In this document: one piece after another, positions 25,306-59,581 of the stretch
Position numbering within the stretch: position 1 is the first letter of the stretch
How the letters are laid out: each line of letters opens with the position of its first letter
Source: Dysidea avara
Taxonomy: Eukaryota > Porifera > Demospongiae > Dictyoceratida > Dysideidae
NCBI RefSeq assembly: GCF_963678975.1
Contig: NC_089279.1
Span: forward strand, 26,336,004 to 26,400,003
DNA: 64,000 nt
Direction of reading: 5' to 3'
Notes under the pieces: generated by a model
The model's database searches: none
Seen by the model: only the letters and a program-made list of their open reading frames with translations
What the model was told of the DNA's origin: nothing
Translations under genes and position numbers: made by a program

Positions 25306-28300
25306 TCAAAACTTCTTTAGACTAAAATCGTCTTTAAGCAGGCTGGACACCATGTAGTCTAGAACATCACCCTCAATAAGCCCTTCTCCCTGATGGCCAG
25401 GATTCATGGCTTTCCAACATATCTTGCCAGTCATCACATTGTCTAGTTCCACTGCTACTGGGTCATGATTTTCAGGGTAAGTTAGTATCTTCTTTACTGG
25501 ATCAACCGACATTCCTTTGACCATAAACTGACCTGAAAATATAATAGAGTGATGACAAACACAAATTATTGTTAATGTAGCATACCGATTAGTCCATGAA
25601 TTTGAGGCACAGTGTCATATTTCATGTTCCAGTCAACATCAAGATGGTTGCCATAGAATCTGACATCAAAAGTAGCAAACGGTTTTGCATATTCAACATG
25701 GATTATAGGATCACCGGTCTGTTTAGTAACACCTCTAGTGAATTTAACAGACATTTTGCCCATCTCATCAAAGGCCACTGTGTCAACTGCAGCAGCAGTA
25801 AAATGTCCCTGATTGACTAATATAACTTCTTGGTTGACTGAGTCAAATATGACTACTTCAGATTTGTTTGAATTTTGTGGGATAACAGCTAGCTTTCCAA
25901 TCCAGGTTGCAACATTTTCATCACCATTGCTGTCTATAAAGAGAGCATTAATGATGTAGTTGTGATTGTAGATCAAGTTGAACACCAGTCCTGAGAATCC
26001 TTGTATGGAGTAACACAGTTTATCACCAGACACCAACGGGACCATGAAATGTGGGTCTCCCATAGCCACTATATCATCTTCATCATCCTTCTCATCTTTG
26101 TCATCCTTGTCGTCTTTATCATCCTTGTCATCTTTATCATCTTTGTCATCCTTGTCGTCTTTATCATCTTTGTCATCTTTATCATCCTTGTCATCTTTAT
26201 CTTTCTTGTCATCTTTGTCATCTTTATCCTTTTTGTCATCTTTATCCTTTTTGTCATCTTTATCATCCTTGTCATCTTTATCATCCTTGTCATCTTTATC
26301 ATCCTTGTCATCCTTGTCGTCTTTATCATCCTTGTCATCTTTATCATCCTTGTCATCTTTATCATCCTTGTCATCCTTGTCGTCTTTATCATCCTTGTCA
26401 TCTTTATCATCCTTGTCATCTTTATCTTTCTTGTCATCTTTGTCATCTTTATCCTTTTTGTCGTCTTTATCATCCTTGTCATCTTTATCATCCTTGTCAT
26501 CTTTATCATCCTTGTCATCTTTATCTTTTTTGTCATCTTTATCATCTTTGTCATCTTTATCATCTTTGTCATATTTATCATCTTCATCTTTTTTGTCATC
26601 TTTATCATCCTTGTCATCTTTATCATCCTTATCATCTTTATCATCCTTGTCATATTTATCATCTTTATCTTTTTTGTCATCTTTATCTTTTTTGTCATCT
26701 TTATCATCCTTGTCATCTTTATCATCCTTGTCATCTTTATCATCCTTGTCATCTTTATCATCTTTATCATCCTTGTCATATTTATCATCTTTATCTTTTT
26801 TGTCATCTTTATCATCCTTGTCATCTTTATCATCCTTGTCATCTTTATCATCCTTATCATCTTTATCATCCTTGTCATATTTATCATCCTTGTCATCTTT
26901 ATCATCCTTGTCATATTTATCATCTTTATCCTTTTTGTCATCTTTATCATCCTTGTCATCTTTATCATCCTTGTCATCTTTATCATCCTTGTCATCTTTA
27001 TCATCCTTGTCATCTTTATCATCCTTGTCATCTTTATCATCCTTGTCATCTTTATCATCCTTATCATCTTTATCATCCTTGTCATATTTATCATCTTTAT
27101 CTTTTTTGTCATCTTTATCATCCTTGTCATCTTTATCATCCTTGTCATATTTATCATCTTTATCTTTTTTGTCATCTTTATCATCCTTGTCATCTTTATC
27201 ATCCTTGTCATATTTATCATCTTTATCTTTTTTGTCATCTTTATCATCCTTGTCATCTTTATCATCCTTGTCATATTTATCATCTTCATCTTTTTTGTCA
27301 TCTTTGTCTTTTTTTCCTCTTTTAACTCTTTTAACATCTTCATCATTTTTATCATCCTTATCGTCAAATCCCTCCTTTGTGTCTGCATCATTCATACCTT
27401 TGGACAAAATGTATAACTATTATATACACAGTCCTATTAAAAACTTGACATAGAAAAATCATATAATCATTTGTACTGTAGAGCAGCTATGGGGGATCAT
27501 GGAGGTTAGCACATGCACGTTTTCACAAAAATATACTGTCCAGATTACCAGCCTCATGGCACCTTGGCAGTATTGATTAGGTAAAATCAAGCCCAAAAGT
27601 GTCTTCAAAGGGGCCTAAAATGCTTCCATTAAGTTGCTAAAGAATATATATTTAATACTGACTGACGAACTAATTGTACTAACTGCTTGCCTACCTACCT
27701 GATTCCTTCAGACACGATAACTAATGATTAAGGTTACAACCTAAGCTTTAGCCATTATTCAGTTACACCAGACTGAATGCTAGTTACACAGTTTATCAGT
27801 CACTTAGTAGAAAATACCACTGAAGATTTCTTTTAAATCTCATAGCAACCTATTAGAAACATTACATGCACTAAAGGCACTCTTGAGCTTGTTTATATCT
27901 TCTAACCAATACTGCTAAGGTACCATGATGTATTGTGGTGAAGCTAATTTCTGGTGATTATTTTTTCATGAGGAAGCACAAAATCTCCATGATTCTGAAC
28001 ACACTACTATATAGCTTGCATACGTACTTCCTGCATCAGTGCACAGCTTTTGGGATAGCTCTTGTTGTAGTTGTTCAATAGCAGTTCTATCAAAGTCTCT
28101 TGTGCTGAAAACAAGTGAAGGATCACTAGCAATGGCATTAAGTTCATCAACATCAAAATTACCAATGCCAACAGTATACACTTTCTGGAATATATTAGAT
28201 GCATGAATTCTCTGAGCAAATGGTATGGTGCCATCTTCATCAATATTGGATTTACCATCAGTTACCACTATAGCAATGTGAGGATGATTCAATCTCAACC

Positions 28301-28886
28301 CCATACTGCCATCTTGCGAACTATCAAGCAGAAGGCTTAATGCTCCGGCTGTGTTGGTGTACCCTCTAATGTAAGGTAAGTCTGGATTGAGAGCTCTTAA
28401 AAGACTAGTGCGATCAGTGTACTCAAGCAAATTAAACTCAAGCCTGAAACTTGAACTAAACTGTATCACACCAGCCAAACTTCCTTGTGGACCAATATCT
28501 AAAAGCCCAGCAATATTTGCAGCAAATTGTCGGATTAGTTGAAACCGAATTGATCCAATACTGGTTGATGAATCAATGACAAAAACCAAGTCTATTCCTC
28601 TAATTTGGCAATCTGTAATAAAAAATAATAGAAAAACACTTGTAACACTACATCAGTACTTCAGTTACCAATTTGATTACTAAGTTGATACTATAAATAT
28701 ATAATATATTATACATACATATATCATTTAGTATTCTTGAATACGTACCTTGTACATCTTTTGCTAGGCCTGAAACCTAAAGTATAAGAAACAATGCAGT
28801 AATGAAACAAATTAACAATATTGTGGCATATAGCTTACAGCAACAAAGAAACTTGCAATAGTAGCTACTAAAGCTCCACCTCTCAT
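25306..28886 (-). CDS. Secreted vWA protein with Lys-Asp repeat and ITIH C-terminal domain (5 exons)
   Basis: Exons, in order, are 28886-28839, 28776-28749, 28612-28028, 27382-25586 and 25532-25306: 894 residues, phases 0, 1, 1, 1. Exon 1 is a signal peptide (MRGGALVATIASFFVA). Exon 3 is the vWA domain with an intact metal site (DSSTS at about 39, later TNT and VTDG). Exon 4 encodes about 420 residues of KDD/KDDKDD repeat (about 235-655), then MGDPHF at about 661-666 and the first part of an ITIH_C-type domain. Exon 5 completes it (HGLIG-QFMVKG joins across the intron; CW, GEGLIEG and DYMV follow). Asp-Pro-His-Phe is the cleavage and glycosaminoglycan-linkage site in vertebrate ITIH; the equivalent role here is inference. 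There is no VIT domain. Exon 4 could instead start at 27397, adding five residues. Confidence 0.85.
26080..27350 (-). repeat. 18-bp coding repeat encoding Lys-Asp-Asp
   Basis: On the coding strand the unit is AAAGATGACAAGGATGAT (KDDKDD), about 70 copies with variants giving KYD, KKD and KED. A longer period is visible at the N-terminal side, where KDKDDKYDKDDKDDKDD recurs. The length is a multiple of three throughout, so the reading frame is preserved. Long open frames on the opposite strand are a consequence of the repeat. Confidence 0.95.
27413..28027 (-). other. Intron 3 of gene 2 (about 645 bp, with flank)
   Basis: The intron lies between the vWA exon (donor GTACGT at 28027-28022) and the repeat exon. 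It is AT-rich with no recognised element. It is about ten times longer than the matching introns of genes 3 and 4 (59 and 52 bp). Confidence 0.6.
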
Positions 28887-29081
28887 TGTGGCAGAATTAA
28901 GTCTGCTGCAGTATAACTGTATGCAGATTACTAACACAACTGCTGATATCACAGTCAGCTGCTGTCTTATAGTCAATGTTGTAACCATGAAACCATAGCT
29001 ACACACTTGAAGCTATAAACATACTATACTGTAACTGTTGTAAAATCATAAATCATGTTGAAAGTGTGCTATGTTGTAGAG

Positions 29082-29089
29082 CTTTTATA
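29082..29089 (-). promoter_or_regulatory. TATA box of gene 2
   Basis: On the minus strand TATAAAAG lies about 196 bp upstream of the gene 2 start codon. The same octamer stands upstream of genes 3 and 4 at about 100 bp. Confidence 0.45.
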
Positions 29090-29325
29090 TGCATAACTTG
29101 CTGTCACCTGAAGTTGACATAATTATTAGCTTTAAGCAGGATTATGTATTGATGAAGTTTTTAGTCATTAAAGATATCCATTTTTGTCCCATTTCATATT
29201 TCCTGTTTCTATGGTCTACACTGATTACAACTGGATGATGTATCCAGTTCTTTCATCTGAAGAAGATCTCGTGTACTTAGTTGTGTCTAATAAGGATGTG
29301 GATATGTATAGCAGGTATGTATAAT

Positions 29326-29595
29326 TGTGACTGGATTTTGTGCAAATGGGTCCTCCACACACATCTATATAAATTACACTGTATAATTATATGAACCAGA
29401 TAGTAAAAACTACAGGTGTAGTAACACTGAAATGCAAATTTGAAACCTCATCTACCCATTAAGCTATGTTGTTGCTCACTGCACTAACTGGCAATACCCT
29501 CAAATATATAGCTTATTTCAATGCAAAGTTATGGATTGCCATAATTGATAACGTAATGTGTGTGGAAGGGACCTTTTCAAATATCTGGTAGCAAA
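29326..29595. mobile_element. MITE with TGTGACTGG end, decayed (copy 5)
   Basis: It begins TGTGACTGGATTTTGTGCAA and TCCACACACATC and ends with GTGTGTGGAAGGGACCTTTT and a worn terminus. Interior resembles the 7694 copy loosely. It is directly followed by GT-rich simple repeats. Confidence 0.55.
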
Positions 29596-29599
29596 TGTG

Positions 29600-29762
29600 A
29601 GTGCTGTTGCTGACTTGCTGTTGTGTGTGTGTTCACATGTGTGTGTGGTGTGTGTGTGCATTTGTATATTTGCATTATGTGTGTGTTGTGTGTGTGTACA
29701 TGCATTTGTGTGTGGAAGACAGGCAAATGTATTATAGATGGCTGATATAGATAGATAGATAA

Positions 29763-29841
<79 letters not shown>

Positions 29842-29842
29842 C
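29600..29842. repeat. GT-rich and GATA microsatellites
   Basis: A GTGTGTG-rich segment (about 29620-29715) is followed by an uninterrupted GATA run of about 95 bp (29743-29840, with one AATA unit). Open frames on the minus strand here (YLSIYLSIYLS) only translate the microsatellite. Confidence 0.95.
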
Positions 29843-29915
29843 ATGAGCCAGTAAAACACATTTCTTGGAATCTATACTTCTCAGAAAAACTAAAAGAATT
29901 CCTTTGTACATAATA

Positions 29916-30144
29916 TGTGACTGAATTTGACAAAACCAGGCTTCCACACACATCCAATTCTTTGACTTTGACCATGATCTTCCAGCATGCTATTGACCTG
30001 AAATTTTCACACAATGGTTCTATAACATTACAAAATGACAAGAAAAAGTGTGAAGCTGATGACGTACTCCTGCACTCAGTTATCATCTCTCAAGGTTGTA
30101 AAACTAGATGTGCGTGAAGCCTGGTTTGTCAAATTTGGTCATGC
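29916..30144. mobile_element. MITE with TGTGACTG end (copy 6)
   Basis: The left end TGTGACTGAATTTGACAAAA and the right end TTTGTCAAATTTGGTCATGC are inverted, with CCACACACATCCAATTCTTT inside. It resembles copy 1 at 446-677 more than the 7694 copy. Its right end lies at the start of the 3.4 kb tandem duplication. Confidence 0.7.
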
Positions 30145-30642
30145 ACATATAAAGAACATGTAGTCCTGGTAACAGTACATGTAGCTCATAATTATGAAGA
30201 ATTACGTACACATGCAGCTATGATTAAAGATGCCTTAGCAATGACAAATCCAGTAAAGTGCATTTACAACTGAAGCAGTGCTACATCACATATTGAATTT
30301 ACAAAGTCAACAGGTGTTAAAATATGATACATAGTTTCAGGAGCCAAATGTCACATCAAACTTGGCAACCACTTTTCAACTGTAATTACCTCGCTGTTCA
30401 GTATGTCATCAGCCCAGGCTTCACCATCAATAGACTTAAGCATAATGGCCTTATAATCTGGTCTGTATTGCCTGTAGATTTACAACTCTTATTTAAATTA
30501 CTAATTAATTGGAAGTCTTATGGGTAGAGTACTGGAAGGAACTGAGGAATTATTAGGGTAAGCATTTGATGATAGAGCACCACAGTTATTCAAATAATTA
30601 CAATATTATATCATAATTATTGGCTACAGTGTAGTTAATATT

Positions 30643-30894
30643 TGTGACCGGGCCTGCAAAAACAAGGCACGTGGGCACAAACTACACCTTGTCACGCTAT
30701 AGATCATATCTCAGTAGTGGAACAGAATATTTACATTCTGTAATCTACATCATAAAGCCAACTAAACTCGTACTAAGAGCTGAAAATTGCATTGCCATGG
30801 GACAATGGTAGAAAAAAGTTGTGAGTGATGAACGTTTGAAAAAGTAGGCAAAAATCATTTGCCCACATGCCCTATTTTTGCAGGCCCAGTCACA
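30643..30894. mobile_element. MITE with TGTGACCGGGC ends (copy 7)
   Basis: The ends TGTGACCGGGCCTGCAAAAA and TTTTTGCAGGCCCAGTCACA are inverted, followed by GGCACGTGGGC and its approximate inverse GCCCACATGCC. The duplicate in unit 2 (34079-35194) is split by another transposon. Confidence 0.8.
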
Positions 30895-32295
30895 TTTAAT
30901 GCCTTATAATCGCTCTTAGCTGTCAATTAATACTGTGCAACATACCACTAGGTCACAGAATACCTACTCTGTTTGGACTCAACTACAAGACTATATACAT
31001 CATGCCATAGAGTGATGATGTATGTCCAATATTGTAGTAAGTCATCATACCATATACAATTGTGTGTGCGTAATAAAACTACTATTATATTTCAGTAAAC
31101 TGTAATTGTATCCACTTTCTGTACACAACAGTTTAAATAATTATTTGTAGGAATTTAGAATAATCCTTACCAATCTATTATGTACATATTTGAAGTACAA
31201 TAATATTAGCTTTGGTCAGGTGCCATCTATAGGCTTTGTGAAATAATGTCACAACATCATGAACTACACAGATAGCTACCATACTGAATTAAAAGTGGTT
31301 ATTCTTAATAATTCATGGTATACATATGTCACCTAACAGAGATGTTTTATCTTGTAACCCACAGCAACTTGGAGGTATATATAGAATGAGCATATATGGT
31401 AAATGTACACAAAATGTAATTCACCTGATAGTCACTGATGGAGTTGTGAATTGTAGAAAGAAATGTATGTCTGCAGTAGATTTCAGCATTGGATATGCTG
31501 TATAGGTGCACCACCGGTAGGGCTTGTTCAATACAATATTTCATGTGTGCATATAGCAGTGATCATAATCTGATGAGCTTGTTATAAATACTGTCTAAAT
31601 CTTACTAAAGCTAGCTTTTTATACAACATGAAATTGTAATCAGAGTGCGATAAATACAACATCATGAATTTAACTGTAATCAGAATGCAATACTTTTAAT
31701 GGCTGAGAAAACATTGCTTCTAATGTCTATGTACGTCACTTAAGTGCCTATATACAAAACCTGTTTAGCTGTATATAACAACACACTATAATACAGACTC
31801 CTATATGCATGGTAAACTATCTACAAAGAATTTGGAATGGCTAGCTGTTGTCGGTCATATATAGGGTGAAGCCTCACATCATTTCTATTTCAGTTTAAAC
31901 ATCTAAATACCATATGTAAATAGGCATATAACCATATATGTGTCCTTAACTACTAACACCAGCAGTTTTTGGATTTTATATTTATCACTTGATATATTAG
32001 TTATTAGTAGATAATTAATTGTTGGTTATTTCATCCATATTTAATTTCAGGAATTCATTACATTTATGGTAGAGAACCCTAGTCCTAGTCTGCATGTCTC
32101 CATCATCCCACATTAATTGCCATGAAATTAATGTGAGCAGCTATGTACATGCATATCCACCACAAATAACTAATATATTCCCTAAAGCATTCTATTTAGT
32201 TTAGCTGTAAAGTTCCATTTTTGATGAGCATGGCTGATTGCATTCTAACCTAAGGAATTTAGCTACATGCCTAACAAATGTAAGTTCACTGTATC

Positions 32296-32375
32296 TTTGA
32301 GCAGGCTGTAGGACCAGGTGTCCTACTGACCTTCAGCACTTGTGCTGTAAAGCATTAATAAATAAATATAAAAAA
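32296..32375 (+). mobile_element. 80-bp retroposon tail insertion with GTATC duplication
   Basis: Compared with unit 2, unit 1 carries an extra 80 bp ending GCATTAATAAATAAATATAA and flanked by GTATC on both sides. A related sequence (TGTGTTGTAAAGTCTTAATA) lies at 51640-51690. The A-rich end and target duplication fit a severely truncated LINE or SINE inserted after the tandem duplication. Confidence 0.65.
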
Positions 32376-32402
32376 GTATCGTATACGTATACACCATGCA
32401 CA

Positions 32403-32766
32403 TAATGGTATCCATACAAAAACAGTCAAGCTGCATAAAAAGGGTGCAGCTTTAAAACCCTGAGTGAAAAACTGAAGTTGTGAAATCTAAGGTGGAGGCC
32501 ATGCAATGATGTTGATGATAACATTTTTTTAATAATGGCTTTGTGCATTATTAAAATTTGCTATCATTAACATAATTGCAGCCATTTCATGGCCACCACC
32601 TTTGATTTTTGCCCAGGCTTTTGAAGGCTGCAACCTTTTTATACAGCTTGGCTGTTTTTACATGGATTTCACTCCTTTTTGTATTTTAAATGGCTACCCC
32701 AAAGCCAACCATATAAACAGGCTTTGAATTTTGTTTTTACACAAATCATTGTTCTTTTTATCTACA
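32403..32766 (+). mobile_element. Foldback element, unit 1 copy
   Basis: Arms with AAACAGTCAAGCTGCATAAA and its inverse TTTATACAGCTTGGCTGTTT surround a short centre (TAATAATGGCTTTGTGCATT). A tail with CCCCAAAGCCAACCATATAA follows and ends CTACAG directly against the hairpin-headed unit at 32769. It is a diverged subfamily of the 7205 element. Confidence 0.7.
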
Positions 32767-32768
32767 GA

Positions 32769-33539
32769 TCAAGACACACGGTAGTGTGTCGTTACCGTGT
32801 GTCGTGCGGCCCAAGAAGCCGGCGCGCCACACCGTGAGTATATTAACAGGAAGAAAGTAAACGCAATTTTCACACCTTTGTAGCTCCGTGATTCCTTATC
32901 CGATTGACACCAAAGTTGCTACAGACGTGCCGGCTAGGTAGGGTAGTCCACATTTCAAATTTGAAGAACATCGCTCCAGCAATTTCCGAGATACGAGCGG
33001 CCAATGTTTGGGGATTTTTTGTTTTGTTTTTTTCTTCTACTTCTTTTCGCACACTTTACAAAGTCTGCCATAAAATGCAAATACGTGCTCCGACCAAGCT
33101 GACATTTGGCACACTTAAAGGGCTCATTATACCAAATCTTAGTACCAACGTTGGTAGGAATCCGATGAACATTTAACATTCACGGAGTTATAATCGATTA
33201 TTTGCTTAAAATATGGTCGAAGGTCTGTCACGCCCACAGGGTAAACCCCTTGAAGGAATGTGCTGAACATTGCTATGTAGATGGAGTATCCATCGTAGGA
33301 GTGTCTTTGTGTGGTTTGAAAAGAATCGATATAAAGGCCATCAAGATATGACACAAAACCCAACCTGTGTCACAATTAAACGATCGATTTTTATGAATAA
33401 AAAAACTATTAGTTTTCACGCGTACCATGCAGGCAAACCGCTTAGAGTAATGAGCTGAAAATCGGTGTGTAGCTGAAATAATTATCATAGAAAGTCCTTG
33501 CAGTAGTACAGAAGAATCGAATTACAAACCACTGAGTTA
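32769..33539 (+). mobile_element. Hairpin-headed repeat unit, copy beta
   Basis: It begins TCAAGACACACGGTAGTGTG and has a 13-bp extra copy of part of the hairpin (TTACCGTGTGTCG) absent from the other copies. The body matches copy gamma closely. It ends early at ACTGAGTTAT, where the tandem duplication joins, so the terminal palindromes and minisatellite are missing. Confidence 0.75.
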
Positions 33540-34078
33540 TGCAAAGTTAACCTCTGTATATTGCAAATTTGGTCATGCACATATAAAGAACATGTAGTCC
33601 TGGTAAAAGTACATGTAGCTCATAATTATGAAGAATTACGTACACATGCAGCTATGATTAAAGATGCCTTAGCAATGACAAATCCAGTAAAATGCATTTA
33701 CAACTGAAGCAGTGCTGCATCACATATTGAATTTACAAAGTCAACAGGTGTAAAAATATGATAACATAGTTTCAGGAGCCAAATGTCACTTCAAACTTGG
33801 CAACCACTTTTCAACTTTAACTACCTCGCTGTTCAGTATTTCATCAGCCCAGGCTTCACCATCAATAGACTTAAGCATAATGGCCTTATAATCTGGTCTG
33901 TATTACCTGTAGATTTACAACTCTTATTTAAAATTGCTAGTTAATTGGAAGTCTTATGGGTAGAGCACTGGAAGGAACTGAGGAATTATTAGGGTAAGCA
34001 TTTGATGATAGAGCACCACAGTTATTCAAACAATTACAATATTACATCATAATTATTGGCTACAGTGTAATTAATGTT

Positions 34079-35194
34079 TGTGACCGGGCCTGCAAAAACA
34101 AGGCACGTGGGCACAAACTACACCTTGTCACGCTATAGATCATATCTCAGTACTGGAACAGAATATTTGCATTCTGTAATCCAGGGGCGGATCTAGGAAT
34201 TATAAAGGGGGGGGGGCTAACTCAAGGTACTAATCTCTTGGGTAAAGGTGTGTGAAGCATGCTGGAACTAGGGGGGTCTGGGGGCATGCCCCCCAGGAAA
34301 ATTTTGAAAAATAGATGCTAAAATACTGCAATTTGAAGACATTTCCACATAAAATTCATAATATTTTCTTCCTGTAGATATTTTATATACTGCCTTTAGA
34401 TTATAGGTATGGCTTTCTGACTCTGAAGTAGCTATTTTGCTAATGGAAAAGTTTGGGTAGGTACAGGCAACCAAGTACATGATGCACCCCTCTCACAATT
34501 GCACAACACTGAATATGTGCATATTAGAATAATAATGTTGAAAGTGGAAAATTTTGAAATTTGAACAATACAAGATTGAATCTGAGAGCATTTTCAATGG
34601 AAATTGTGTACCTGAATTAAGTATTGTCATACATATTAACTACACAAGTAGATGAATGAAGCCCTTTAAACAGACCAATGCACTTCATTGTATGTATATG
34701 TGCAGGCAGATTTGGAAAAATTCCATAACAGAACCAACTACATGTTTCCAGTGAATGTTCTATTAGAGTAGGTAGCTGACTGCTCTATTAGAGTATCTCG
34801 ATCTTGTACACCTCCAATGCTGATCCGGGTCCTTGTTGCATAAACTTTAGCATAAATCCACTGATAATACCTTGGAAAAATGTTTATAAGGTGGTTTTAT
34901 GAGTATTTGTATTATTAGTGATCATATAATTATGCTAAGACAAAATTTCATTATAATACTCAGCATATTGATCAAGTAAAGCTTAAATATGAAGGGGGGA
35001 GCTTCAGCCCTCAACCCCCCCCCCCCCTGGATCTGCCCCTGTAATCTACATCATGAAGCCAACTAAACTCGTACTAAGAGCTGAAAATTGCATTGCCATA
35101 GGACAATGGTAGAAAAAGTTATGAGTGATGAACGTTTGAAAAAGTAGGCAAAAATCATTTGCCCACATGCCCTATTTTTGCAGGCCCAGTCACA
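34079..35194. mobile_element. MITE with TGTGACCGGGC ends split by insertion (copy 8)
   Basis: The duplicate of 30643-30894. Its two halves (34079-34181 and 35042-35194) are separated by the CAGGGGCGGATC element. Confidence 0.8.
34182..35041. mobile_element. DNA element with CAGGGGCGGATC ends inserted in a MITE
   Basis: The ends CAGGGGCGGATCTAGG and CTGGATCTGCCCCTG are inverted. Unit 1 of the tandem duplication gives the empty site, CTGTAATCTACATC, so the boundaries are exact to a few bases: TAATC is duplicated, and up to CTGTAATC if the terminal CTG is shared. G and C runs flank the interior at each end. It contains GGGGGTCTGGGGGCATGCCC as in 5293-6478 and CTCTATTAGAG motifs near 34750-34800. 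No coding capacity. Confidence 0.85.
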
Positions 35195-36472
35195 TTTAAT
35201 GCCTTATAATCGCTCTTAGCTGTCAATTAATACTGTGCAACATACCACTAGGTCACAGAATACCTACTCTGTTTGGACTCAACTACAAGACTATATACAT
35301 CATGCCATAGAGTGATGATGTATGTACAATATTGTAGTAAGTCATCATACCATATACAATTGTGTGTGCGTAATAAAACTACTATTATATTTCAGTAAAC
35401 TGTAATTGTATCCACTTTCTGTACACAACAGTTTAAATGATTATTTGTAGCAATTTAGAATAATCCTACATATGTCACCTCACAGAAATGTTTTTATCTT
35501 GTAACCCACAGCAACTTGGAGGTATGTATAGCATGCAAGAATGAGCATATATGGTAAATGTACACAAAATGTAATTCACCTGGAGTTGTGAATTGTAGAA
35601 AGAAATGTATGTCTGCAGTAGATTTCAGCATTGGATATGCTGTATAGGTGCACCACCGGTAGAGCTTGTTCAATACAATATTTCATGTGTGCATATAGCA
35701 GTGATCATAATCTGATGAGCTTGTTATAAATACTGTCTAAATCTTACTAAAGCTAGCTTTTTATACAACATGAAATTGTAATCAGAGTGCGATAAATACA
35801 ACATCATGAATTTAACTGTAATCATGAATGCAATATTTTTAATGGCTGAGAAAACATTGCTTCTAATGTCTATGTACGTCACTTAAGTGCCTATATACAA
35901 AACCTGTTTAGCTGTATATAACAACACACTATAATACAGACTCCTATATGCATGGTAAACTATCTACAAAGAATTTGGAATGGCTAGCTGTTGTCGGTCA
36001 TATATAGGGTAAAGCCTCACATCATTTCTATTTCAGTCTAAACATCTAAATACCATATATAAATAGGCATATAACCATAATATACAGGTGTATGTGTCCT
36101 TAACTACTAACACCAGCAGTTTTTAGATTTTATATTTATCACTTGATATATTAGTTATTAGTAGATAATTAATTGTTGGTTATTTCATCCGTATTTGATT
36201 TCAGGAATTCATTACATTTATGGTAGAGAACCCTAGTCCTAGTCTGCATGTCTCCATCATCCCACATTAATTGCCATGAAATTAATGTGAGCAGCTATGT
36301 ACATGCATATCCGCCACAAATAACTAATATATTCCCTAAAGCATTCTATTTAATTTAGCTGTAAAGTTCCATTTTTGATGAGCATGGCTGATTGCATTCT
36401 AACCTGAGGAATTTAGCTACATGCCTAACAAATGTAAGATCACTGTATTGTATACGTATACACCATGCACAT

Positions 36473-36837: not shown

Positions 36838-36838
36838 A

Positions 36839-40167: not shown

Positions 40168-41000
40168 TCAAGACACACGGTAGTGTGTCGTGCGGCCCAA
40201 GAAGCCGGCGCGCCACACCGTGAGTATATTGACAGGAAGAACGAAAACGTCATTTTTACACCTTTGTATCTCGGTGATCACTTATCTGATTGGAACCAAA
40301 TTTGCTACACAGTTGCCCGCCAGCCAAAGGAGTCTACATTCCAAATTTGAAGGAAATCGCTCCAGCCATTTCCGAGATACGAGCTGCCAAAGTTTCGTTT
40401 TTTTTTTCTTCGTTTTTTTTTTCTTCTTCGTCTTTTCGCACACTTGCAAAAATTGCTATAACAAGCAAACGCGTACTCCGATCGCCTTGAAATTTGGCAC
40501 ACAGAAAGGGAGTCCAAAGGCGAATCCTAGCATCAAATTTGGTACAAATCCGATGAATGGTTCAGGAGTTAAGACCGATTATTCGCGTAAAACAAGATCG
40601 GTTTGTTGTCACGCCTACAGGGTAAACCGCTTCATGGAATGAGTTGAAAATTGCTATGTAGATGGAGTAACCATCGTAGGAGTGCCTTTTGGTGGTTTGA
40701 AAGGAATCGAAATGAAGACCACGGAGATATGACACAAAACCCAACCTGTGTCACAATTACGCGATCGATTTTTATGAATATCAAAAGTATTAGTTTTCAC
40801 GCCTACTAGACAAACCGCTTAGAGCAATGAGCTGAAAATCGGTGTATAGCTGGAATAATCTTCATAGAAAGTCCTTGCAGTAGTATACAGAAGAATCGGA
40901 TTACAAACCACTGAGTTATGATTCGAAAGCCAACTCCGTGTAGCAAATGCGAGATCGAGATACTCTAATAGAACAGTCACCCTAATAGAGCATTCGGCTA
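40168..41000 (+). mobile_element. Hairpin-headed repeat unit, copy delta
   Basis: It starts TCAAGACACACGGTAGTGTG after an A and contains GGCCCAAGAAGCCGGCGCG. The body has CTTGAAATTTGGCACACA. It ends GATCGAGATACTCTAATAGA followed by a second CTAATAGAGCATTCGG. This is the most complete copy, with minisatellite C and a foldback following in order. A 150-residue open frame across it resembles the frame in copy alpha around PIALKFGTQKG, but no family was recognised. Confidence 0.8.
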
Positions 41001-48573: not shown

Positions 48574-49495
48574 GCAAATTTGTAGACAATAAAGGTGCTA
48601 CCTACTAAGGATGTTTCACTAGAAAGAATCACTACCAGACTAATGTTTTCAATATTTGTAGGATTTTACTGTTATGCTGTCTTAGTTTGGTCTCTGTTTT
48701 TAAATTATAGCATCACTGTCTTGTGTGCTTCGGTTGGTTTAGAAATGCACTGAAGATTTACTGCACTTTATCTTTAATGAGTATTTGCATACATACATCA
48801 TATGTGTACATATTTACATGTATATTGTTACTCCACTTTTTGCTAGTCTTATTTCAATTGTATGAACACATGTATAGCTGAACTCAGTAAACTTAGCCAT
48901 TAAACAAGCATGGTTACAAATTAAACCAACAACAATGCCAACTGAGAATCACTGAACATTGAACCTGCATGGAACTGTGCAGTTACCAGGCTACTGTTGT
49001 CATCACTTGGCTAAGGTACCTCATGAACATACATATATATAGAAGTTAAAATAATTTATGTTCTTCAACCTCTATCCGTAAGCATTTACACAGTCTTCTG
49101 TGGGTCACTACTCCTGCCCCAGGAATATTTACATGTGGTATATAAGTACCCTCCTGCACCTGTATAAAACAGCACTATCAATTGCTGTTAATTTGCTTAC
49201 GCGTAATGTGTACACATGTGCATGATGCCAGAATATATGCGTATGCATGTACCGAGAGTATGTGCTAAATAATTGTGTTTAAAATTATAAAGTTTTCTAC
49301 ATCTGTGTACTTACCTATACACACGTGTACAGGTTTGCACAGAGTTCCAACTAGCTACATGTACAGCTTATAGGCACATAAGTGTCACCATAATACACAT
49401 TACAGACGAATAGCATACCAAACCCAGGTGTGCTTTAGTAATGATGCTCAAACATTGCAATTGGAATGTTGAACCATGCATATATAAGTACCTAC

Positions 49496-49642
49496 AATCC
49501 TACAAACTTGGTTACAAGGTTTTAATTTAAGGCAATAATTGATTGCCTGCATACTGAAGAATGCACACCTTGTACACATACCAATATATAGCATACGGTT
49601 TAGTAAGTGTGATTAGGTAACTTTCCTAGTTGTTTAAAATAC
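49496..49642 (-). repeat. Left arm of a 150-bp inverted repeat, extra in copy 1
   Basis: AATCCTACAAACTTGGTTAC through ATTTAAGGCAATAATTGATT to TTGTTTAAAATAC is the reverse complement of 49807-49969. Copy 2 of the segmental duplication has only the right arm (60766-60930) and joins cleanly across this site. Confidence 0.85.
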
Positions 49643-49806
49643 AGTCCACTCCAGTTACTATGTTTGTACATGTGTGAGGTATCATAATGTATACCATAAC
49701 TATAGGTAGAGATGAAATTACATGTATGTGTTGTTGATTCCAATTATATCACATTAATTCTTGTGGAAATCTTACTATTGCATCAACCTATGAAGTAATT
49801 ACAAAT

Positions 49807-49969
49807 GTATACTTTAAACAACCAGGAAAGCTACCTAATCACACATACTAAACCGTATAGCTATATTGGTATGTGTACCAGGTGTACATTCTTCATTATG
49901 CAAGCATCCCATGGTCAAGCAATCAATTATTGCCTTAATTTAAAACCTTGTACCCAAGTTTATAGGATT
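49807..49969 (+). repeat. Right arm of the inverted repeat
   Basis: GTATACTTTAAACAACCAGG through TTTATAGGATT. It has a counterpart in duplication copy 2 at 60766-60930, so this arm is the older one. Confidence 0.85.
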
Positions 49970-50319
49970 GAAGGTATGAATTATATGAAATTACCTACAT
50001 AGGAGGATCTAGGAGAAACTGCTAGGATGAGGAAAGAGGAGAACAGAAGACCTGAAGTGGGCAACAAGAAAAATATGCTGATTGGTATATTGGGTGCTTA
50101 TTATGTGCTGCAGGTATGTGTAAACCAGCACCCGCAATACAAATTAATTGATTGCATTTCTTAGTCATTACTATAAGTGTATTTACAATCATCTCGAGCT
50201 CTATAGATCAACTCTGTTGTACTTACTAACTTTCTTTCTCATCTCTATGTATGTATATTGATGTCATAAAATGGTTTCTATGGTAAACATGTGGTATAAT
50301 ATGCACACGAAACTGGTTA

Positions 50320-50505
50320 TATATGAAATAATAAAGACCTAGCAATGTGACAGTTTGTGAGAGGCCACACATGCAGGAAAACATCATATATATGTGACAG
50401 CTAGAAATATGCATTTTTATAAGTACTTTAAAACGTAATGTTGAAAGAGGAAAGTTGCTTATCTTGTTAGGTGCACTGTTAAGTAGTATAATGCATAATT
50501 CCAAG
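50320..50505 (+). repeat. Dispersed repeat (GTTGAAAGAGGAA family), member 1
   Basis: Blocks AGAGGCCACACATGCAGGAA, AGAAATATGCATT and AATGTTGAAAGAGGAAAGTT recur at 53100-53420 and 54590-54910 in the same order. Ends are not defined. Confidence 0.55.
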
Positions 50506-50818
50506 AAGCACTAGTATAGGCCACTAACCATAACATGCTCGATGAATTAATTGTGCTATAGTCACATTCTACAAAGATGTTTGTCATTTATAATTAACAA
50601 ATAGTTCTGCATATTCACCAAAAAGACATTATAGTCATATTTCAAGTTTAATCTGAATCTTAAGCATGTGTCTGTATATGGCTATATATGAGGTTCTCAC
50701 TTCTAATACAGGTTGTTTATACATACTATATTATAATTATTGTGCGCATACAAATTTTCACATGCACAAAAAGCATGTATGCATGACGCATACATGACTA
50801 AACTTTGTAGCATAAAAG

Positions 50819-52518
50819 GGGAAAGTCATACGATACAATGTTCCTTTCGCTTCATTTTTTCACCATGGGTACATTATAACAATCATGCAAGCTTGTTGCA
50901 ATAGAAATAATCAAGGATAATAAGGGTTCATACCACAATTAAAATGTGCATGCAGTATCCACCTAATATAGCACCATAAATTGCATTGTATAGTATGAGA
51001 TCTCTAGACTAAGAGATAGTCACCCTTTTGGTAGAACTTTAGCTTAGCAATTTCTTGACTATCATCTGAAGGCTTTTGAAGCCAAAACCTTTTGAAGCCA
51101 AAACCAGTTCATCACATGTCTGGATCTGCCACTGCTGCAGTTCTTTTGGCTAGGAACTATCCATCATTCTAAAATGTATTGCAGTTGAACTTGTTAATCA
51201 GGACACTTGAAACTGATAACACTTGTGTAATCTGAACACTTGGTAATGGTCCCAGAAGTAAACTTCAGCATGTTTAACCTGGAGAATAAGGACACCAGAA
51301 CACTTTGGTTGGTCCCAAGGTGTCCGGTTTCACATGCATATGTATAATTATTATGGATGGCATTCTGTAACAGTTCTGGAAATACATTGTTAGTATTTAA
51401 ATTTATAATAATATTCCTTGTTCCTCTATAAAATTAATAGTTTGCAAGCTATTTATAAATTCAATTATAAACCCCCCAGTGCTAATTTATGCTTTCTATA
51501 TTTTATGCAGATCAACATGACTACCTACATATCAACATGCACATATTAAAAAAGTAAGAGGCAATCAGCAGCTAGTATGGTCATACATTACAGCATACAT
51601 ATGGGAAAGCCATATATATCAAGTTAGCTTTCACTGTGGGATCAGGTGTCCAGTACTTGTGTTGTAAAGTCTTAATAAAAAAAATCTATATAGCAGCATG
51701 CAAGAAAATAGAATCCAGTTGTCTACAGTAACCTAAGCCACATAATACCCTTTAAATAATCACTATGCAACAAGAAAATACATATATTATGTACAAATGC
51801 ATATTTGGTGTTGCTGATTTATACTACAGCTTAAGTCACCAATTAAATGTCGTCCTGTATGCATAACTGTGCCTGAAGTACAAAATTGAATGATAGCACT
51901 TCTATGAGTAAATTTGCAAACATCTACTTTGCTTGCTAAATCTCTCTCAAGCTTGTTTCTATGTGTATTACTGTACAAGTGAGGGACAGTGTGTACTATA
52001 TACACACAAACTATACACCAATTGGTACGTAGTTCCTATTGTATCCTTAATAATAAAATGGATACTTTTTAGTCTTTATTCATAAATGGTGCACGAGATT
52101 TTATACATTGTCTACATAAGCATTACTGTTTCAGGGGGTATTATAACTTTTATGCACTTAGTTTATATTATTAGCTACAGTATATGTGTAGTACAGAGCT
52201 AGGGGTGTACTGTATGTGCATAACTTTACATGTATAATATGTATAGACTTGCATATTGTACTGTACCTTAGAAATTGTATCAAGAATGTTTGATTGTATT
52301 GTGGAAATGCTGTATCATTGGCTTGAAATATAAGAAGGCATACATATTAGCAATAATATTATTGCGCATGTACATTATGTTGATTTACCATGGTGATCCA
52401 GTGTGCTGTAAATTGAAAAGCCACATGCATACATGTATTGTGTATATACAGAATCTCATGGAATTCAATTGTCAGCCCAATTAACTTGTAGGTAGGAACG
52501 TAGGTGGCCTCAGCAGAT
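50819..52518. repeat. 1.7 kb block present only in duplication copy 1
   Basis: Copy 2 jumps from CATAAAAG (61744) to GCATGTATTA with only a few bases between. The block contains a transposon end CTGGATCTGCCACTG (51120-51134), a pogo-like stretch (51180-51345) and a retroposon-like tail (51640-51690). It is either an insertion here or a deletion in copy 2. No gene seen. Confidence 0.7.
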
Positions 52519-53099
52519 GTGCATGTATTACCAATTAGAGACCAGTTAACTGATTTGCTAGGGCAAACAATAACCATAGAATTTACTATTATCACTGGAA
52601 GAATACTGGACAAGAAATGTGCAGTACAGGGCTTTAGGCTTCCCTGAACAGTTCCTCCAATTTCCAGGAACCGATCAGAAACTGCTCAGGAACGTCTACA
52701 GAAAATTCTGCACTGCACTGCAAATTTCTTGTTAATATTCTTCCAATGTATAAAACAACTTATCATTAATCAGAAAAATGCCATACTATTAGCAAAGCAG
52801 GAACAGAAGTATGTGTGTCCATGTGTTAGTTTTGTTTATAGACGCATGCAACTTCAGTGAAAGTACTATAAAACTATAGCTTGCTACTATAGTGACATGC
52901 ATAGTTCATATCCATTACATAGCTATATGATGTAAAACAGCTTAGGTTGTATTCAGAGAGCATATAATGATCACTTAAGCACTTAAGCATATAGAAATAT
53001 GGCTTCAATAATTATTGTAAAACATATTATATTTTACCATTGGTAATCATAATTCATAAACAATGTCCGAGTCTTAAGTCATTATACTCACATTCATTT

Positions 53100-53420
53100 C
53101 ATTAAAGCAAAATCAGTATCTGTACAAGCACTAGCATGCACAAGTAGCTGAATAATGGTAATCAAGAAAACTGGTTTGTTGAGTAAGGGTTCTAAAGACT
53201 TAGAAATGTAACAGACTGGCCAAGTCCACATATTCAGGGAAAGCAGTTGATATGAAGGATTCCAAACTATGATAATTAAACCCTAGGAATATACATTCCA
53301 TAGGTTACATGGTCATAATAATAATGTTGAAAGAGGAATTGTTATTGTGTACTGCTAGTAGCTATGATGCTTCATGCCCAAAAGTGACAGTAGAGGTGGA
53401 ACTGTACCAAGCAACTAAGT
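53100..53420 (+). repeat. Dispersed repeat (GTTGAAAGAGGAA family), member 2
   Basis: Contains ACAGACTGGCCAAGTCCACA, ATACATTCCATAGGTTACAT, GTTGAAAGAGGAA and GCTTCATGCCCAAAAGTGAC. Also present in duplication copy 2 at about 62250-62550. Confidence 0.6.
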
Positions 53421-54545
53421 AGTTTGTGAGTGTTCAACATATTGTTCTTCATACATATGCTACACAAAGTGCTCCCAATATTGTTTATGATAAAGTCCTA
53501 CTTGGACATAGAATTAACCCTTAGTCTCCCAGTATCTATTTTCAATAATTTTTTTGCATCTACCTGTAATTAATAATTTGATATTGTTTTTTGTTTTTTT
53601 AGCTGGATGGAAAGTATTTTGTATAAACCACCTGGCCATTTGTATAACTAGAAATATAAATTTCCATATAAGGGTCTTGTTTATACAAGGCGATAATAAA
53701 TTGCCATTTATATTCTTATTCTTTCATGTGCCAATGAATATTCTTATTCCTGTCATAAAATCATTATAGAATATCCTTTCTGCGCCAAGTTTTTCTGCTT
53801 GTAGCTGATTACTGTGGCTATCCAATGTAACATCAAAAAGTGCCAATAAAGCTATTAGTAAAAATTTATTGATAATATATTTAAATCTTTCACAATCCCA
53901 AGTGGATTATTCTATGATCACACCAAAGTTCTCAATTGGTCACTGGACAGTAGAGAACTAGTCCTAAAAATTTCATCATGATTGCTCAATGTATGTAGGA
54001 GATATAAAGCAATATGTGGAGTAGTGTAAAACGATTACACGATACTTGGGAGATTAAGGGCTAAGCAATTGCAATAACAATGTATGTCTGATGTGGCTTT
54101 ATATTCCCACACTCAATGCAGGCCTATGACATACTTATGTATACATGTACTTGTACAGAAAGCAAGTGGGTATCCAACTAAAGTTTATTGTATATTGCCA
54201 ATATTGGTTTATCACATGTTTATAGTTTAGAGGTGTATTGATAATTGGTTCAGCTATTGTACATCGCCCTTGTTTTTGCATATCAGTATCAGATCAGTAA
54301 CTTATACATACAAGCAGCAGATGCAGTACAGATTTTCATAAACAACTGTTGATGGGTACCCATGCTCTAGTAATATCCTACCTAGCAACACCTATTTAAT
54401 ATGTAATGTCAACTATTAATTAAAGTCACTTAATAACTAAATTTAGAGTGCAAATTGTTAGAGAAAAGGTCTATGCTACCATATCAGATCGGCTTTGTTT
54501 ATCGGTTTGATATAAATTATTTTATATCGGTTGTTGGAATATTGA

Positions 54546-55179
54546 AAAATACCTCTGTCCCCCACATTCATTATGGCTAAATCATTATCTGTCATGCAGC
54601 ATATACATGAGCATAACTAACTTAATGTTAAACAAGAAAGCTGGTTGCATGTGTAAGGATTACTTAGAAAGTGACAGTCTGGGTGAGGCCACACATGTAG
54701 GGAAATTGATGAAATGATTTATGTGAAGAATCCTGATTAGAAATATACATTCCATAGGTCTGTACATGTACTTTACTACATTATCATCACATCTCTAATT
54801 GAAAGAGGAAAGTTGCTGATGTTGCTAGGGTACACTCTTAGTATAATTATGCTTCATGCCCAAAAGTGACATCAGATATGGAACTGTACCATTAACCCAA
54901 GCAACTTATTTGTTAAACTGCTGGCTAGAGTTCTATGAATTGTGGTTACAAGCATCATTCATGCAACAAAGGAACTTAACTAGTTAAAATAAATTATTCT
55001 GCTGAAATCATAAAAATGATGTGTATTGCATCTTACATAGCTACCTCAAACAAACCATAATGTTTAATTGCCTGTACTACATGTGCATGGCTTTGAAGTT
55101 TACACACTCAATTTCAATGCAAGTGTCCAGCATAACAATAATTTTAATGCAAACTATCACATGCATACCATACCTTAGC
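54546..55179. other. Non-coding stretch with dispersed repeat, member 3
   Basis: At about 54590-54910 GAGGCCACACATGTAGGGAA, ATACATTCCATAGGT, TTGAAAGAGGAAAGTTGC and GCTTCATGCCCAAAAGTGAC repeat the order seen at 53100. The rest is plain AT-rich sequence. Confidence 0.5.
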
Positions 55180-55480
55180 ACACCATGGGTATATTGACAG
55201 GTAAAACATGCAATTTTCACATATATATAGCTCCATCCCTTAATCAACTGGAACAAAATTATTATTTTGTAAACATTCCCAGTTGGTAGGGGAGTCCACA
55301 TACCAAATTTGAAGGAAATTGCCCCAGCCATTTCCAAGATATGAGTGGAAAAACTTTTGGGTTGGTTTAACAAGTCACCCTGTAGAGAGTTCCACTACAT
55401 ACAAGTCACCCTGTAGATAGTTCAGCCATAACAAGTCACCCTGTAGAGAGTTCAGCCACAAATAAATCACCTTGCAACTA
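55180..55480 (+). mobile_element. Degenerate hairpin-headed unit plus short minisatellite D
   Basis: GGGTATATTGACAGG, TAGCTCCATCCCTTA, GGGGAGTCCACATACCAAAT and CCATTTCCAAGATATGAG follow the body of copies beta to delta. From about 55370 three to four minisatellite units (CAAGTCACCCTGTAGAGAGT) follow. The hairpin head itself is eroded. Confidence 0.65.
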
Positions 55481-55554
55481 CATTACAAGTTGCTTTATAG
55501 AGAATTAAAACACAATATGTACGTATACAGACATAGTCAAATACACATCTTTAT

Positions 55555-55655
55555 CTTCTTCTTGTTGTAAAGAAAAGACATTAAAAAGGAAGCTTCAAGC
55601 CAGCCATGGGCTAGCTTTGGTTTACAAAAAGAAGTGACATCTAAATCAAAAAAAG
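55555..55655 (-). mobile_element. Foldback element tail fragment
   Basis: CTTCTTCTTGTTGTAAAGAA, AGCCAGCCATGGGCTAGC and AAAGAAGTGACATCTAAATC match the tail of the foldback family. The arms are missing. It follows minisatellite D as the complete element follows minisatellite C. Confidence 0.55.
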
Positions 55656-55813
55656 AGGAGGGATGATGTAGAGCTCTCTATATACCTCAATGATATGGTT
55701 ATCCATAATACCCAACTCTTCCACTTTGCAGATGAGGATAATGTCTCTGATGAATGTGGATGACAACCTTGTTAGGTCAACGATAACATAGTAAACACCA
55801 TAATAATTATAAC

Positions 55814-56302
55814 CAATGGCGGATCCAGCATTTAGTATTTGGGGCAAATTCCCCCCACCCCTCTCACCTTGTGGAGGAGCCATGCAGCCATGCTTCTGAT
55901 TAAAATAGCTACTAAACTTTGTATCAGGCCAAGATCAGTTTATTACTGTATCTCATGAAAATATGCACACTTTACTAGCATTTATTACAAATTCATGTGA
56001 AACCAAAGCAAACCAGTCAAACTAACTATAAAATTGCCACCCCACCACTTTCGTGTGTATTAAATGTCTCTAAAATTAATTATCGTGTTGCTGCATGTTT
56101 TAAAGATATTCAGAGCCTTTTAAATAGCTTTTAATACTTCACAGGAAAGACCGAAATGGCAAAAATTAACTGTGAGACACTACTAAGAAGTGATTATTTG
56201 TTGCTTCAAAAATGCAACACTGAACTAGAACATCTGGCTCTCTCCCACCACCTACAACTTAGCCTGTGCCCCTCCCCTTGCCAGCTCCTGGATCTGCCCC
56301 TG
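55814..56302. mobile_element. DNA element with CAATGGCGGATCCAG ends
   Basis: The left end CAATGGCGGATCCAGCA and the right end CTCCTGGATCTGCCCCTG are imperfect inverted repeats. ATAAC and ATAAT flank them, a 5-bp duplication with one change. It belongs with the 7109 and 34182 elements by its ends. 489 bp, no coding capacity. Confidence 0.65.
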
Positions 56303-57827
56303 ATAATTTCCATTACATGCACAAAAAAGTTGTAGCAATTTGATGGGAGGAAGTAAACAATTCATATTATAACAGTTTCTTCAAAATGTATTCATAGTTA
56401 TAATAAGCATTAATTAGTTTAACTTAAATGTGACAGGCTAAGTGAAAATCAACTATGTTTATAACACACACTGCAATCACAGTATATACAAAACATTAGT
56501 TTCATTCACGTGCCACATACTATTTTCTATATACAGCCTAGCACTCTGGAGATATATAATAATAATTAAGAATCCATAATGGACTCTTATTATGGACTCT
56601 TGATAATGTATATAGCTATCAGGTTGCGTATCCAAGTTATTACTACATCTGCTTAGTATAAATTGTTATTCCTGGGAAATGTGAGGCTCTAGCTACATAT
56701 ATGAGAATCTCAACATCAAAATTAATGTTCCACACAATGATAAGATAATTAGAATTCAGGGTGAAAATAACCAGAATAATTATGTTTTGAATATTAGGAT
56801 GTTTCATTGGAGTGCATTTTAACTGATCCTATAAAAATTAAAGTCTTGACTTTTAACATCCAGCTTTATGTTCAACTGATGTCTGGTTGGTTTGTCTTGT
56901 TCTCTTTATACCTTTTTATTGATTTAGAAAATCTGCACACCTTGCCAATCCAGTTACAACAGTTAACAGAGTTGATCTCAATGTGACACAGAATAAGAAC
57001 AACTGCATAGGAATATGATGATGCAGTTGTTGAGATGAGTTTTTCCTGCAGTGACATGACACACAACACTTGCTATGCAATCTGAGACTTATGTGTAGCA
57101 GTTAACTAAGTGAGATCACTGCTGGTAAGCAATGCATCATACCACCATCCATCAGTGCTTGTACAATAAATTGTCTGAATTGTGAATTCAGCTACATCTC
57201 AAAAGTAGAGCAAAATATGCTTAGCTGGCTGTATAGTGACTGTGACTAATTACGTACTTTCCAATTCTGCCAGCTTAATTTTGAGCATAATTGACTTTTA
57301 TGGGTGCACCTGTTTTAAAGCCAAAGTGTCCTTGCATGGATGAAAACTTTGCTAATTATAATTAGTTGTATTAAGATTGATTCTTGGCCTTTCCAGATAT
57401 CAGCTCTAAGTACTACTTTAAGTTACTTACTTTCATGAGGTCTTTCTTTACAAGTGAACTGGTTTTTACATTGGGTTAAAAGTACTAGTTTCTTGAGTGT
57501 GCTATTTTTACAGCAAACTGTGTTTTTGGGTTGATATACATACATAAGTAACGGTATATTCTTACAGAACTCTAACAGAACATTCAAACACAAAAAGGCA
57601 TACTGGTTATGATACTCACGTAACAGATGTTAGGATAACAAATGATAAAAATCATTTTAACAGTACTGCAAAGTTAAATATATCCAGCTTATAACATTTA
57701 AGTAATCACAATGTAAACATTGTACAACAGATCATACAGTATACAGAAAACGTATTTTTGCTTACAGCATCTACATTAAAGTGTACATGTAATATTTTTT
57801 ATGCAATGACAGTGCATGTGTAGATGT
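56303..57827. other. AT-rich stretch, nothing recognised
   Basis: No exon, terminal repeat or tandem repeat was identified between the CAATGGCGGATC element and the second duplication copy. Confidence 0.4.
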
Positions 57828-57897
57828 ATATAATTATAATAATAGCAACCAAATAATTCTTGCATGTACAGTGTACTGCACTGTCTTGAAGTTTTTC

Positions 57898-59581
57898 TTA
57901 GAACTTTTTGAACTTGAAATCATCTTCTAGCATATTGGACACCATGTAGTCGAGAATGCTGCCCTCAATAAGCCCTTCTCCCTGATGGCCAGGATTCATG
58001 GCTTTCCAGCATGTCTTGCCAGTCATCACATTGTCTAGTTCCACTGCTACTGGGCCATGGCTGTCAGGGTAAGTTAGTATCTTCTTTATTGGGTCAACTG
58101 ACATTCCTTTAACCATAAACTGACCTGAAAAGAAAATAGTATAAATTCGTCACACTGTTTAGAACTTACCAATTAGTCCATGCATCTGAGGAACATTGTC
58201 GTATTTCATGTTCCAATCTACATCAAGATGGTTGCCATAGAAACTAACATCAAAAGTAGCAAATGGTTTGGCATATTCAACATGGACCAGAGGATTACCG
58301 GTCTGCTTAGCAACACCTCGAGTGAATTTGACAGACATTTTTCCCATTTCATCAAAGGCCACTGTGTCAACTGCAGCAGCAGTAAAATGTCCCTGATTGA
58401 CTAATATAACTTCTTGGTTGACTGAGTCAAATATAACTGCTTCAGATTTGTTAGAATTTTGTGGGATAACAGCTAGCTTTCCAATCCAGGTGGCATCTTT
58501 CTCATCACCATGGCTGTCTACAAAGAAAGCATTAATGATGTAGTTGCGATTGTAGATCAAGTTGAAGACCAGTCCTGGGTATCCTTGTATGGAGTAACAC
58601 AGCTTATCACCAGACACCAATGGAACCATGAAATGAGGGTCCCCCATTGCCATTGTATTATTTTCATTGTCTGCAAACATTGTAACTTTAGTAAATATCA
58701 TACAGAATGTTAACCAACTCACCATCGCACAATCTCTGGGAAAGAGCTTGTTGCAGTTGTTGAATAGCTGTGCTGTCAAAGCTGTTTGTATTGAAAACAA
58801 GTGAAGGATCACTAGCAATGGCATTAAGCTCAGTGAGGTCGGCATTACCAACACCAACAGCATACACCTGCTGGAATATATTAGATGCATGTACACTCTG
58901 AGCATTAGGTATGGTCTGTGCTGAGTTAACATTTGATTCTCCATCAGTGATAACAATAGCAATAGCAGGATGTCCTGGTCTCAGTCCCATTGTGCCATCT
59001 TGAGCGCTGCTAAGTAAAAGACTTAAAGCTGCAGCTGTGTTGGTGCTTCCAGCATCATATGGCAAGTCTGGATTTATGGCTGTTGAAAGAGCTGCAATAT
59101 CAGTGTGTGTAGGTAAATTGAAATGAAGAGTAGCATCAGTGCTGAACAATATTACTCCAGTGAGACTCTCCTGTAGACCAATAGTGAGCAACTGGACTAA
59201 TCCCTCAGTAAACTCTCGGATCATCTGAAACCGACTTGAACCAATGCTTCCCGAAGTATCAATCACAACGACACAATCAATTCCCCTAATTTCACATTCT
59301 GTAAACAAAAATTTGTGCATGAATCTAACACAATTTACCATTAAAGTATATAAGCAGTACATATATAAACACTACATACATGTATTGCACTATGTAGTAC
59401 TACTATAACTGTGCAGATGCTAACACACAAGTATATAGATATACAGCCTTTAGCTCACCAGGGTCACTTTGGCCTTGCACCTATAAATACGAAAAACAAT
59501 GACATTTGGTTAGTATTCATTGCAACTTACTCCAACAAGTAGGCATAATGCAAAAGTTGCTATAAGAACAGCACAGTTCAT
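57898..59581 (-). CDS. Secreted vWA-ITIH_C protein, duplicate of gene 3 (5 exons)
   Basis: Exons, in order, are 59581-59531, 59480-59459, 59298-58723, 58670-58170 and 58124-57898, giving 458 residues, the same exon lengths and phases as gene 3. The signal peptide is identical at the protein level. The vWA domain has the metal site DTSGS at 38-42; nearby changes are conservative (CVVVID for CVFVID, ESLTGV for DSLAGV). The C-terminal ITIH_C-type domain opens MGDPHF and retains HGLIG-QF, GEGLIEG and DYMV. No stop or frameshift was found, so both duplicates look functional. Introns are 50, 160, 52 and 45 bp. Confidence 0.9.

Follow-up and report, generated by a model that had tools for sequence, protein, structure and literature searches.

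Predicted secreted vWA proteins of the sponge Dysidea avara that probably join a matrix-type head to an ITIH_C tail

What kind of protein carries a heavy-chain tail behind a von Willebrand factor A (vWA) domain when the VIT domain is missing? The question is raised by three genes (genes 2, 3 and 4) in a 64,000-nucleotide stretch of the Dysidea avara genome, hereafter the window (C8:26336004-26400003 in a genome of 550.8 Mb and 108 contigs). ITIH_C is known mainly as the pro-domain of the inter-alpha-trypsin inhibitor heavy chains (ITIH), and a sequence-only reading of the window suggested that the three genes could represent that family in a simpler, or secondarily reduced, state. Our analysis points elsewhere. 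Head and tail have separate kinships, the vWA grouping with secreted matrix proteins, and heavy chains of the usual plan (VIT, ITIH-type vWA, ITIH_C) are encoded on another contig. We consider it probable that a matrix-type vWA was joined to an ITIH_C tail, and our best reading is that two expanded families were joined by exon shuffling, with tandem duplication afterwards. All counts of heads and tails are those of this one genome.

The models of the three genes, spliced on consensus sites, predict five exons each, with GT..AG introns throughout, the first in phase 0 and the second to fourth in phase 1. All three lie on the reverse strand (window positions). Gene 2 (28886-25306; 899 amino acids) has two short leader exons (28886-28839, 28776-28749), a vWA exon (28612-28028), an exon holding a spacer and the first part of the tail (27397-25586) and a second tail exon (25532-25306). 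Gene 3 (48463-46775; 458 amino acids) has leader exons 48463-48413 and 48362-48341, vWA exon 48186-47611 and tail exons 47551-47051 and 47001-46775; the corresponding exons of gene 4 (59581-57898; 458 amino acids) are 59581-59531, 59480-59459, 59298-58723, 58670-58170 and 58124-57898. The hydrophobic leaders were assigned by eye, without a predictor. The VWA profile search that the sequence-only reading had proposed for the spliced proteins gave PF00092 at 119-125 bits (Pfam cut-off 23.8), and DxSxS / T / TDG, which we take to be the pattern of the metal ion-dependent adhesion site (MIDAS), reads by eye as intact in all three genes. In the tails DPHF, HGLIG-QF, CW and GEGLIEG follow in this order over 231 residues counted from PHF. 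Eleven residues separate vWA from DPHF in the models of genes 3 and 4; gene 2 instead has a 449-residue spacer (26092-27397, reverse strand), an alternating polyampholyte with 259 Asp and 156 Lys that lies on a single exon (25586..27397, reverse strand) with the DPHF...HGLIG part of its tail. Several frames are open on the strand opposite this spacer because of the Asp/Lys alternation. TATA-like boxes 107, 110 and 203 bp upstream of the ATG in genes 4, 3 and 2 (chance expectation 0.45 per 400 bp) lend weak support to complete 5' ends. The gene models and PF00092 matches, together with the tail profiles and VIT searches below, bear out the proposed architecture of leader, vWA and ITIH_C without VIT, with its motifs in the proposed order.

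The tail was traced to ITIH_C through intermediates. Across the whole genome PF06668 (ITI_HC_C) gives 15 matches above cut-off, on C1 (two), C3 (nine) and C7 (four), and none in the window. Two classes checked with Pfam served as bridges, a canonical C7 tail (class A; 57.1 bits) and a C1 tail (class B; 40.7 bits). By hhalign the window tails align end-to-end with class B (E 1.4e-24) and with canonical class A (E 7.5e-10), and the two classes align with each other (E 1.1e-14). A genome search with the single gene 4 tail exon also reached the canonical tails, at E 9e-8 to 1.1e-7. Twenty-two columns, including DPHF, LCY and HG..GQF, are invariant across 13 tails, with the caveat that DPHF belonged to the pattern used to cut out most of them. 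Two intron features, read from the DNA by eye, further unite window, class B and canonical genes: HGxxG|QF is split by a phase-1 intron, and DPHF (in gene 2, the spacer) is preceded by a phase-1 acceptor. On these alignments the window tails are homologous to ITIH_C. A PDB sequence search with one tail gave no match, searches with tail profiles A3, A4 and A6 gave chance-level matches or none, and no prokaryotic or viral kin could be confirmed among the 32 candidate stretches picked out by pattern in genome_contigs or the 6 in viral_contigs.

The head has other relatives. The closest solved relatives of the window vWA are collagen VI alpha-3 and mussel PTMP1, and no ITIH protein occurs in the best 60 of 64. 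A 17-sequence vWA tree has two sides, separated with support 100/97: the window and C8 vWAs lie on one together with those of collagen VI and PTMP1, and the ITIH vWA lies on the other beside the VIT-vWA proteins. Constraining the window vWA to join ITIH costs 11.5 log units and is rejected by the approximately unbiased test (p-AU 0.030). We regard this evidence for a matrix-type head as good but not final.

The missing VIT domain, which the sequence-only reading had also noted, was confirmed in the window and its surroundings. A hidden Markov model (HMM) search of the window in six frames found nothing significant (best E 4.7; the positive control on C7 lay partly inside the HMM training set), and a Pfam VIT search of the genome returned 27 matches, those on C8 lying only at ~2.06-2.09 Mb, against 26.34-26.40 Mb for the window. 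The same search placed VIT at 14.89-14.95 Mb of C7, next to ITI_HC_C. Three copies there have an open frame after VIT; the 545-residue frame that was searched matches human ITIH4 (E 3.1e-48) and ITIH1 (E 4.8e-42). ITIH_C exons follow 1.6-2.5 kb beyond these frames; in the 70 kb read, no VIT-following frame accompanies a fourth copy of ITIH_C. The C7 proteins also have in common with human ITIH4 a region after the vWA that the window genes lack. With exon junctions read by eye, heavy chains of the usual plan coexist with the window genes in this genome. VIT-vWA gene arrays lie at C9:17.998-18.222 Mb and C11:20.13-21.79 Mb (14-27 VIT matches in the genome's list); their genes presumably resemble VWA5-type proteins.

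Both parts of the window genes belong to large families. With the gene 4 tail exon as query, at least 124 matches reached E 1 or better; merging of fragments left at least 116 loci, 71 of these at E up to 3.5e-13 and some being fragments or stop-bearing copies. The gene 4 vWA gave at least 142 matches at no fewer than 139 loci. At 8 of the 116 tail loci, seven on C8 (26.219-26.418 Mb) and one on C5, a window-type vWA precedes the tail on its own strand by at most 3 kb, and within 10 kb the number rises to 9; of the 139 vWA loci, 130 lack a tail at up to 10 kb distance. Loci of window-type vWA are found on C1, C5, C8, C11 and others, with a dense array on C5 (21.1-21.8 Mb, 50-60% identity). Outside the C8 cluster, a tail and a window-type vWA stand 1.7 kb apart at C5:24215559-24218273, possibly a second joining. 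A tree of 34 tails with midpoint rooting unites the seven C8 tails in a single clade (100/100), which makes up a larger set (100/100) with weakly placed C5 neighbours (83/69) and tails from C2 and C6. The canonical tail is very distant from the C8 tails; tails that belong to other heads are far nearer to those of the window.

These other heads were sought by a Pfam scan of upstream frames at eleven tail loci; the frames are same-strand neighbours, so that their association with the tail is predicted. Heads above the Pfam cut-off were found at five loci: VWD, C8 and TIL domains (120, 73 and 43 bits) at L034, NIDO (64 and 114 bits) at L036, EGF (51 bits) at L048, IgGFc_binding (148 bits) at L066, and EGF_CA with TIL at L067. 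Six of the eleven gave none above cut-off, among them L065, with a Calx-beta hint below it, and L039, L063 and L064, which have Cys-rich modules outside any Pfam family. Small modules of this kind (C...C...CC...SF...C..C) precede many tails (L038, L039, L041-L042, L045-L050, L063, L064) and have no Pfam match where scanned. At the loci read, the tail takes the C-terminal position behind different heads.

Exon shuffling would account for the joining of these two families. In the gene models the vWA occupies one exon flanked by phase-1 introns, and the tail forms a cassette that starts behind a phase-1 intron and runs to the stop codon, phase-1 borders that let the two be joined in frame. The joined form, present at seven loci of one C8 cluster (26.219-26.418 Mb), three of them inside the window, would then have spread partly by tandem duplication. 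Genes 3 and 4, which are 95% identical and 11.1 kb apart, belong with L029 and L030 to a tandem array of four near-identical genes (C8:26383052-26418324, period 11.1-11.7 kb) that extends beyond the right end of the window. To the left of the window, the same cluster holds broken ITIH_C fragments with stops (C8:26248945-26249434). Among genes 2, 3 and 4 the vWA and both tail exons have a ratio of nonsynonymous to synonymous change (dN/dS) of 0.13-0.25; some comparisons that involve the neighbouring genes L029, L030 and L037 are higher (0.30-0.75), several of these values being based on fewer than 10 changes. Measured against genes 3 and 4, the two parts of gene 2 are of unequal age: synonymous divergence (dS) is 1.09-1.13 in the vWA and 0.28 and 0.44-0.47 in the tail exons, and DNA identity is 69% in the vWA versus 90% and 87% in the tail exons. 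This pattern would follow if the tail had undergone gene conversion or the head had been exchanged. Genes 3 and 4 show the opposite order (vWA 97%, tail exons 96% and 93%), for which conversion would account.

A further gene of the window has the head without the tail. Gene 1 (2599-4626, forward strand; exons 2599-2643, 2707-2728, 3216-3398 and 4043-4626; 277 amino acids) is predicted to encode a leader, a Thr/Ser-rich linker and a vWA followed by a stop, with no ITIH_C. Its vWA is of the same group as those of genes 2-4 and pairs with the vWA of the tailed C8 gene L037 (92/94); the tail was therefore lost or gained within the cluster. Elsewhere in the window, open frames at 10277-10852 (reverse strand) and 40184-40642 (forward strand) have in common a CCHAYRVNR stretch, which probably marks a mobile element or a dispersed repeat.

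What might such a protein do? The tails of genes 2-4 contain GDPHF, and by hand count GDPH occurs in 18 of 24 full tails. Passages of a study of VWD domains describe an autonomous break between Asp and Pro at GDPH, and place the GDPH of human ITIH3, 5 and 6 inside a domain of predicted VWD topology (PMC10880436). The vWA head, its metal site intact, would bind a matrix ligand, and the tail would fold in the secretory pathway and break the Asp-Pro bond of GDPH. The product would be a head ending in Asp, which may remain on the tail, be released, or be esterified to an acidic polysaccharide as in vertebrate heavy chains. Self-cleavage of the window tails at GDPH seems likely; transfer of the head to a polysaccharide, by analogy with vertebrates, is possible. 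For the whole chain, a secreted vWA of collagen VI type with a C-terminal ITIH_C pro-domain that cleaves itself, we see about an even chance.

Several observations weigh against this account. The direct PF06668 match expected by the sequence-only reading did not appear (gene 2 tail 12.1 bits, E 0.15; genes 3 and 4 no match listed; cut-off 27), and two sister tails elsewhere in the genome likewise stay below the cut-off (12.8 bits and no match), so that the test set by that reading fails; homology through class B and canonical tails stands. As to the head, the program warned that long branches meet on the side of the vWA tree that holds the window and C8 vWAs, whose grouping apart from collagen VI and PTMP1 has little support (38/29). 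The splicing of the genes is a prediction, and the locus counts are lower bounds, the genome search scoring best candidates only. Six of the 24 full tails have a residue other than G before DPH, and the case for self-cleavage draws on the motif and on the remark about human ITIH3, 5 and 6 (PMC10880436). An hhalign comparison of ITIH_C with VWD was not significant (E 0.013-0.16), 2 of 20 column-shuffled controls outscoring the real full set, and an AlphaFold2 model of the first tail exon, built from three near-identical sequences, had a mean predicted local distance difference test score (pLDDT) of 36 and was discarded.

The strongest alternative, to which we give somewhat less than an even chance, is that the tail is a structural or assembly domain only, nicked at GDPH or not, and that no head passes to a polysaccharide. 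The effect of GDPH cleavage shown in FCGBP is a domain more resistant to proteolysis, according to passages of PMC10880436, and vertebrate transfer relies on the chondroitin sulfate of bikunin and on hyaluronan, according to passages of PMC7170535; both would fit a structural tail. However, the latter source also describes the pro-domains of heavy chains (239 residues in HC1, 244 in HC2) as lost in the reaction that esterifies the chain end to chondroitin sulfate, and the tail of the window genes belongs to this domain. Its C-terminal place behind varied heads is likewise what a processing signal would show.

Far less probable is that genes 2-4 are heavy chains that lost VIT and the region following it. 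They do keep the heavy-chain order of vWA before ITIH_C, and the canonical genes on C7 offer a possible source. However, the idea of a simpler or reduced form of the family fares badly on several grounds: genes of the usual plan are present in the same genome, the window vWA is kin to collagen VI and PTMP1 and most of its relatives are tail-less, the heavy-chain region after the vWA seen on C7 and in human ITIH4 is absent as well as VIT, and tails of the same class, among which the seven C8 tails are one clade, sit behind other heads and are much nearer than the canonical tail. Least credible of all is that vWA-ITIH_C was the ancestral order and canonical heavy chains gained VIT, a scenario compatible with data from one genome and trees without an outgroup root, but opposed by the position of the C8 tails as one derived clade, under midpoint rooting, within the 34 tails and of the ITIH vWA with VIT-vWA proteins.

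The reading that a matrix-type vWA was joined to an ITIH_C tail places genes 2-4 between several known systems. They resemble secreted matrix-type vWA proteins such as collagen VI and PTMP1 in vWA kinship, leader and MIDAS. We know of no collagen VI or PTMP1 protein with an ITIH_C tail. With ITIH heavy chains they have in common a vWA with MIDAS and a C-terminal ITIH_C pro-domain that opens with DPHF and is of similar length (231 residues versus 239 and 244, as given in passages of PMC7170535), but they lack VIT and the post-vWA region, their vWA is of another group, and their tail stays below the Pfam cut-off. The VWD domains of FCGBP, MUC2, SUSD2 and RGMB have GDPH in common with the tails, and no significant profile match. 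We found no description of such a spread of ITIH_C in titles and abstract starts, with few subscription journals or preprints covered, which is weak evidence of absence; titles and abstract starts on Porifera and inter-alpha-trypsin inhibitor yielded only ascidian work, and passages of the main text of PMC4224354 make no mention of ITI domains.

The tail family itself is a larger surprise than the window genes. Found at 116 or more loci, and beside several unrelated heads where sampled, ITIH_C changes from an accessory of one family into an apparent mobile module. Hedgehog/Hog proteins carry one C-terminal processing domain behind different N-terminal heads; the comparison is an analogy only, with an unrelated domain and chemistry, and processing of the window tails is predicted. 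A bolder proposal, which we offer as speculative and on balance doubtful, is that in this animal ITIH_C is a portable C-terminal self-processing module, carried at about 100 loci by varied matrix heads (vWA, VWD-C8-TIL, NIDO, EGF, IgGFc-binding and undescribed Cys-rich modules), that GDPH cleavage would attach each head by the C-terminal Asp so created to an acidic matrix polysaccharide, and that the vertebrate heavy chain-hyaluronan system would be one specialised survivor. The distribution described here makes it testable whether heavy-chain-like glycan linkage is old and general; if the portable-module proposal is true, protein-glycan ester linkage would be a general way of building matrix.

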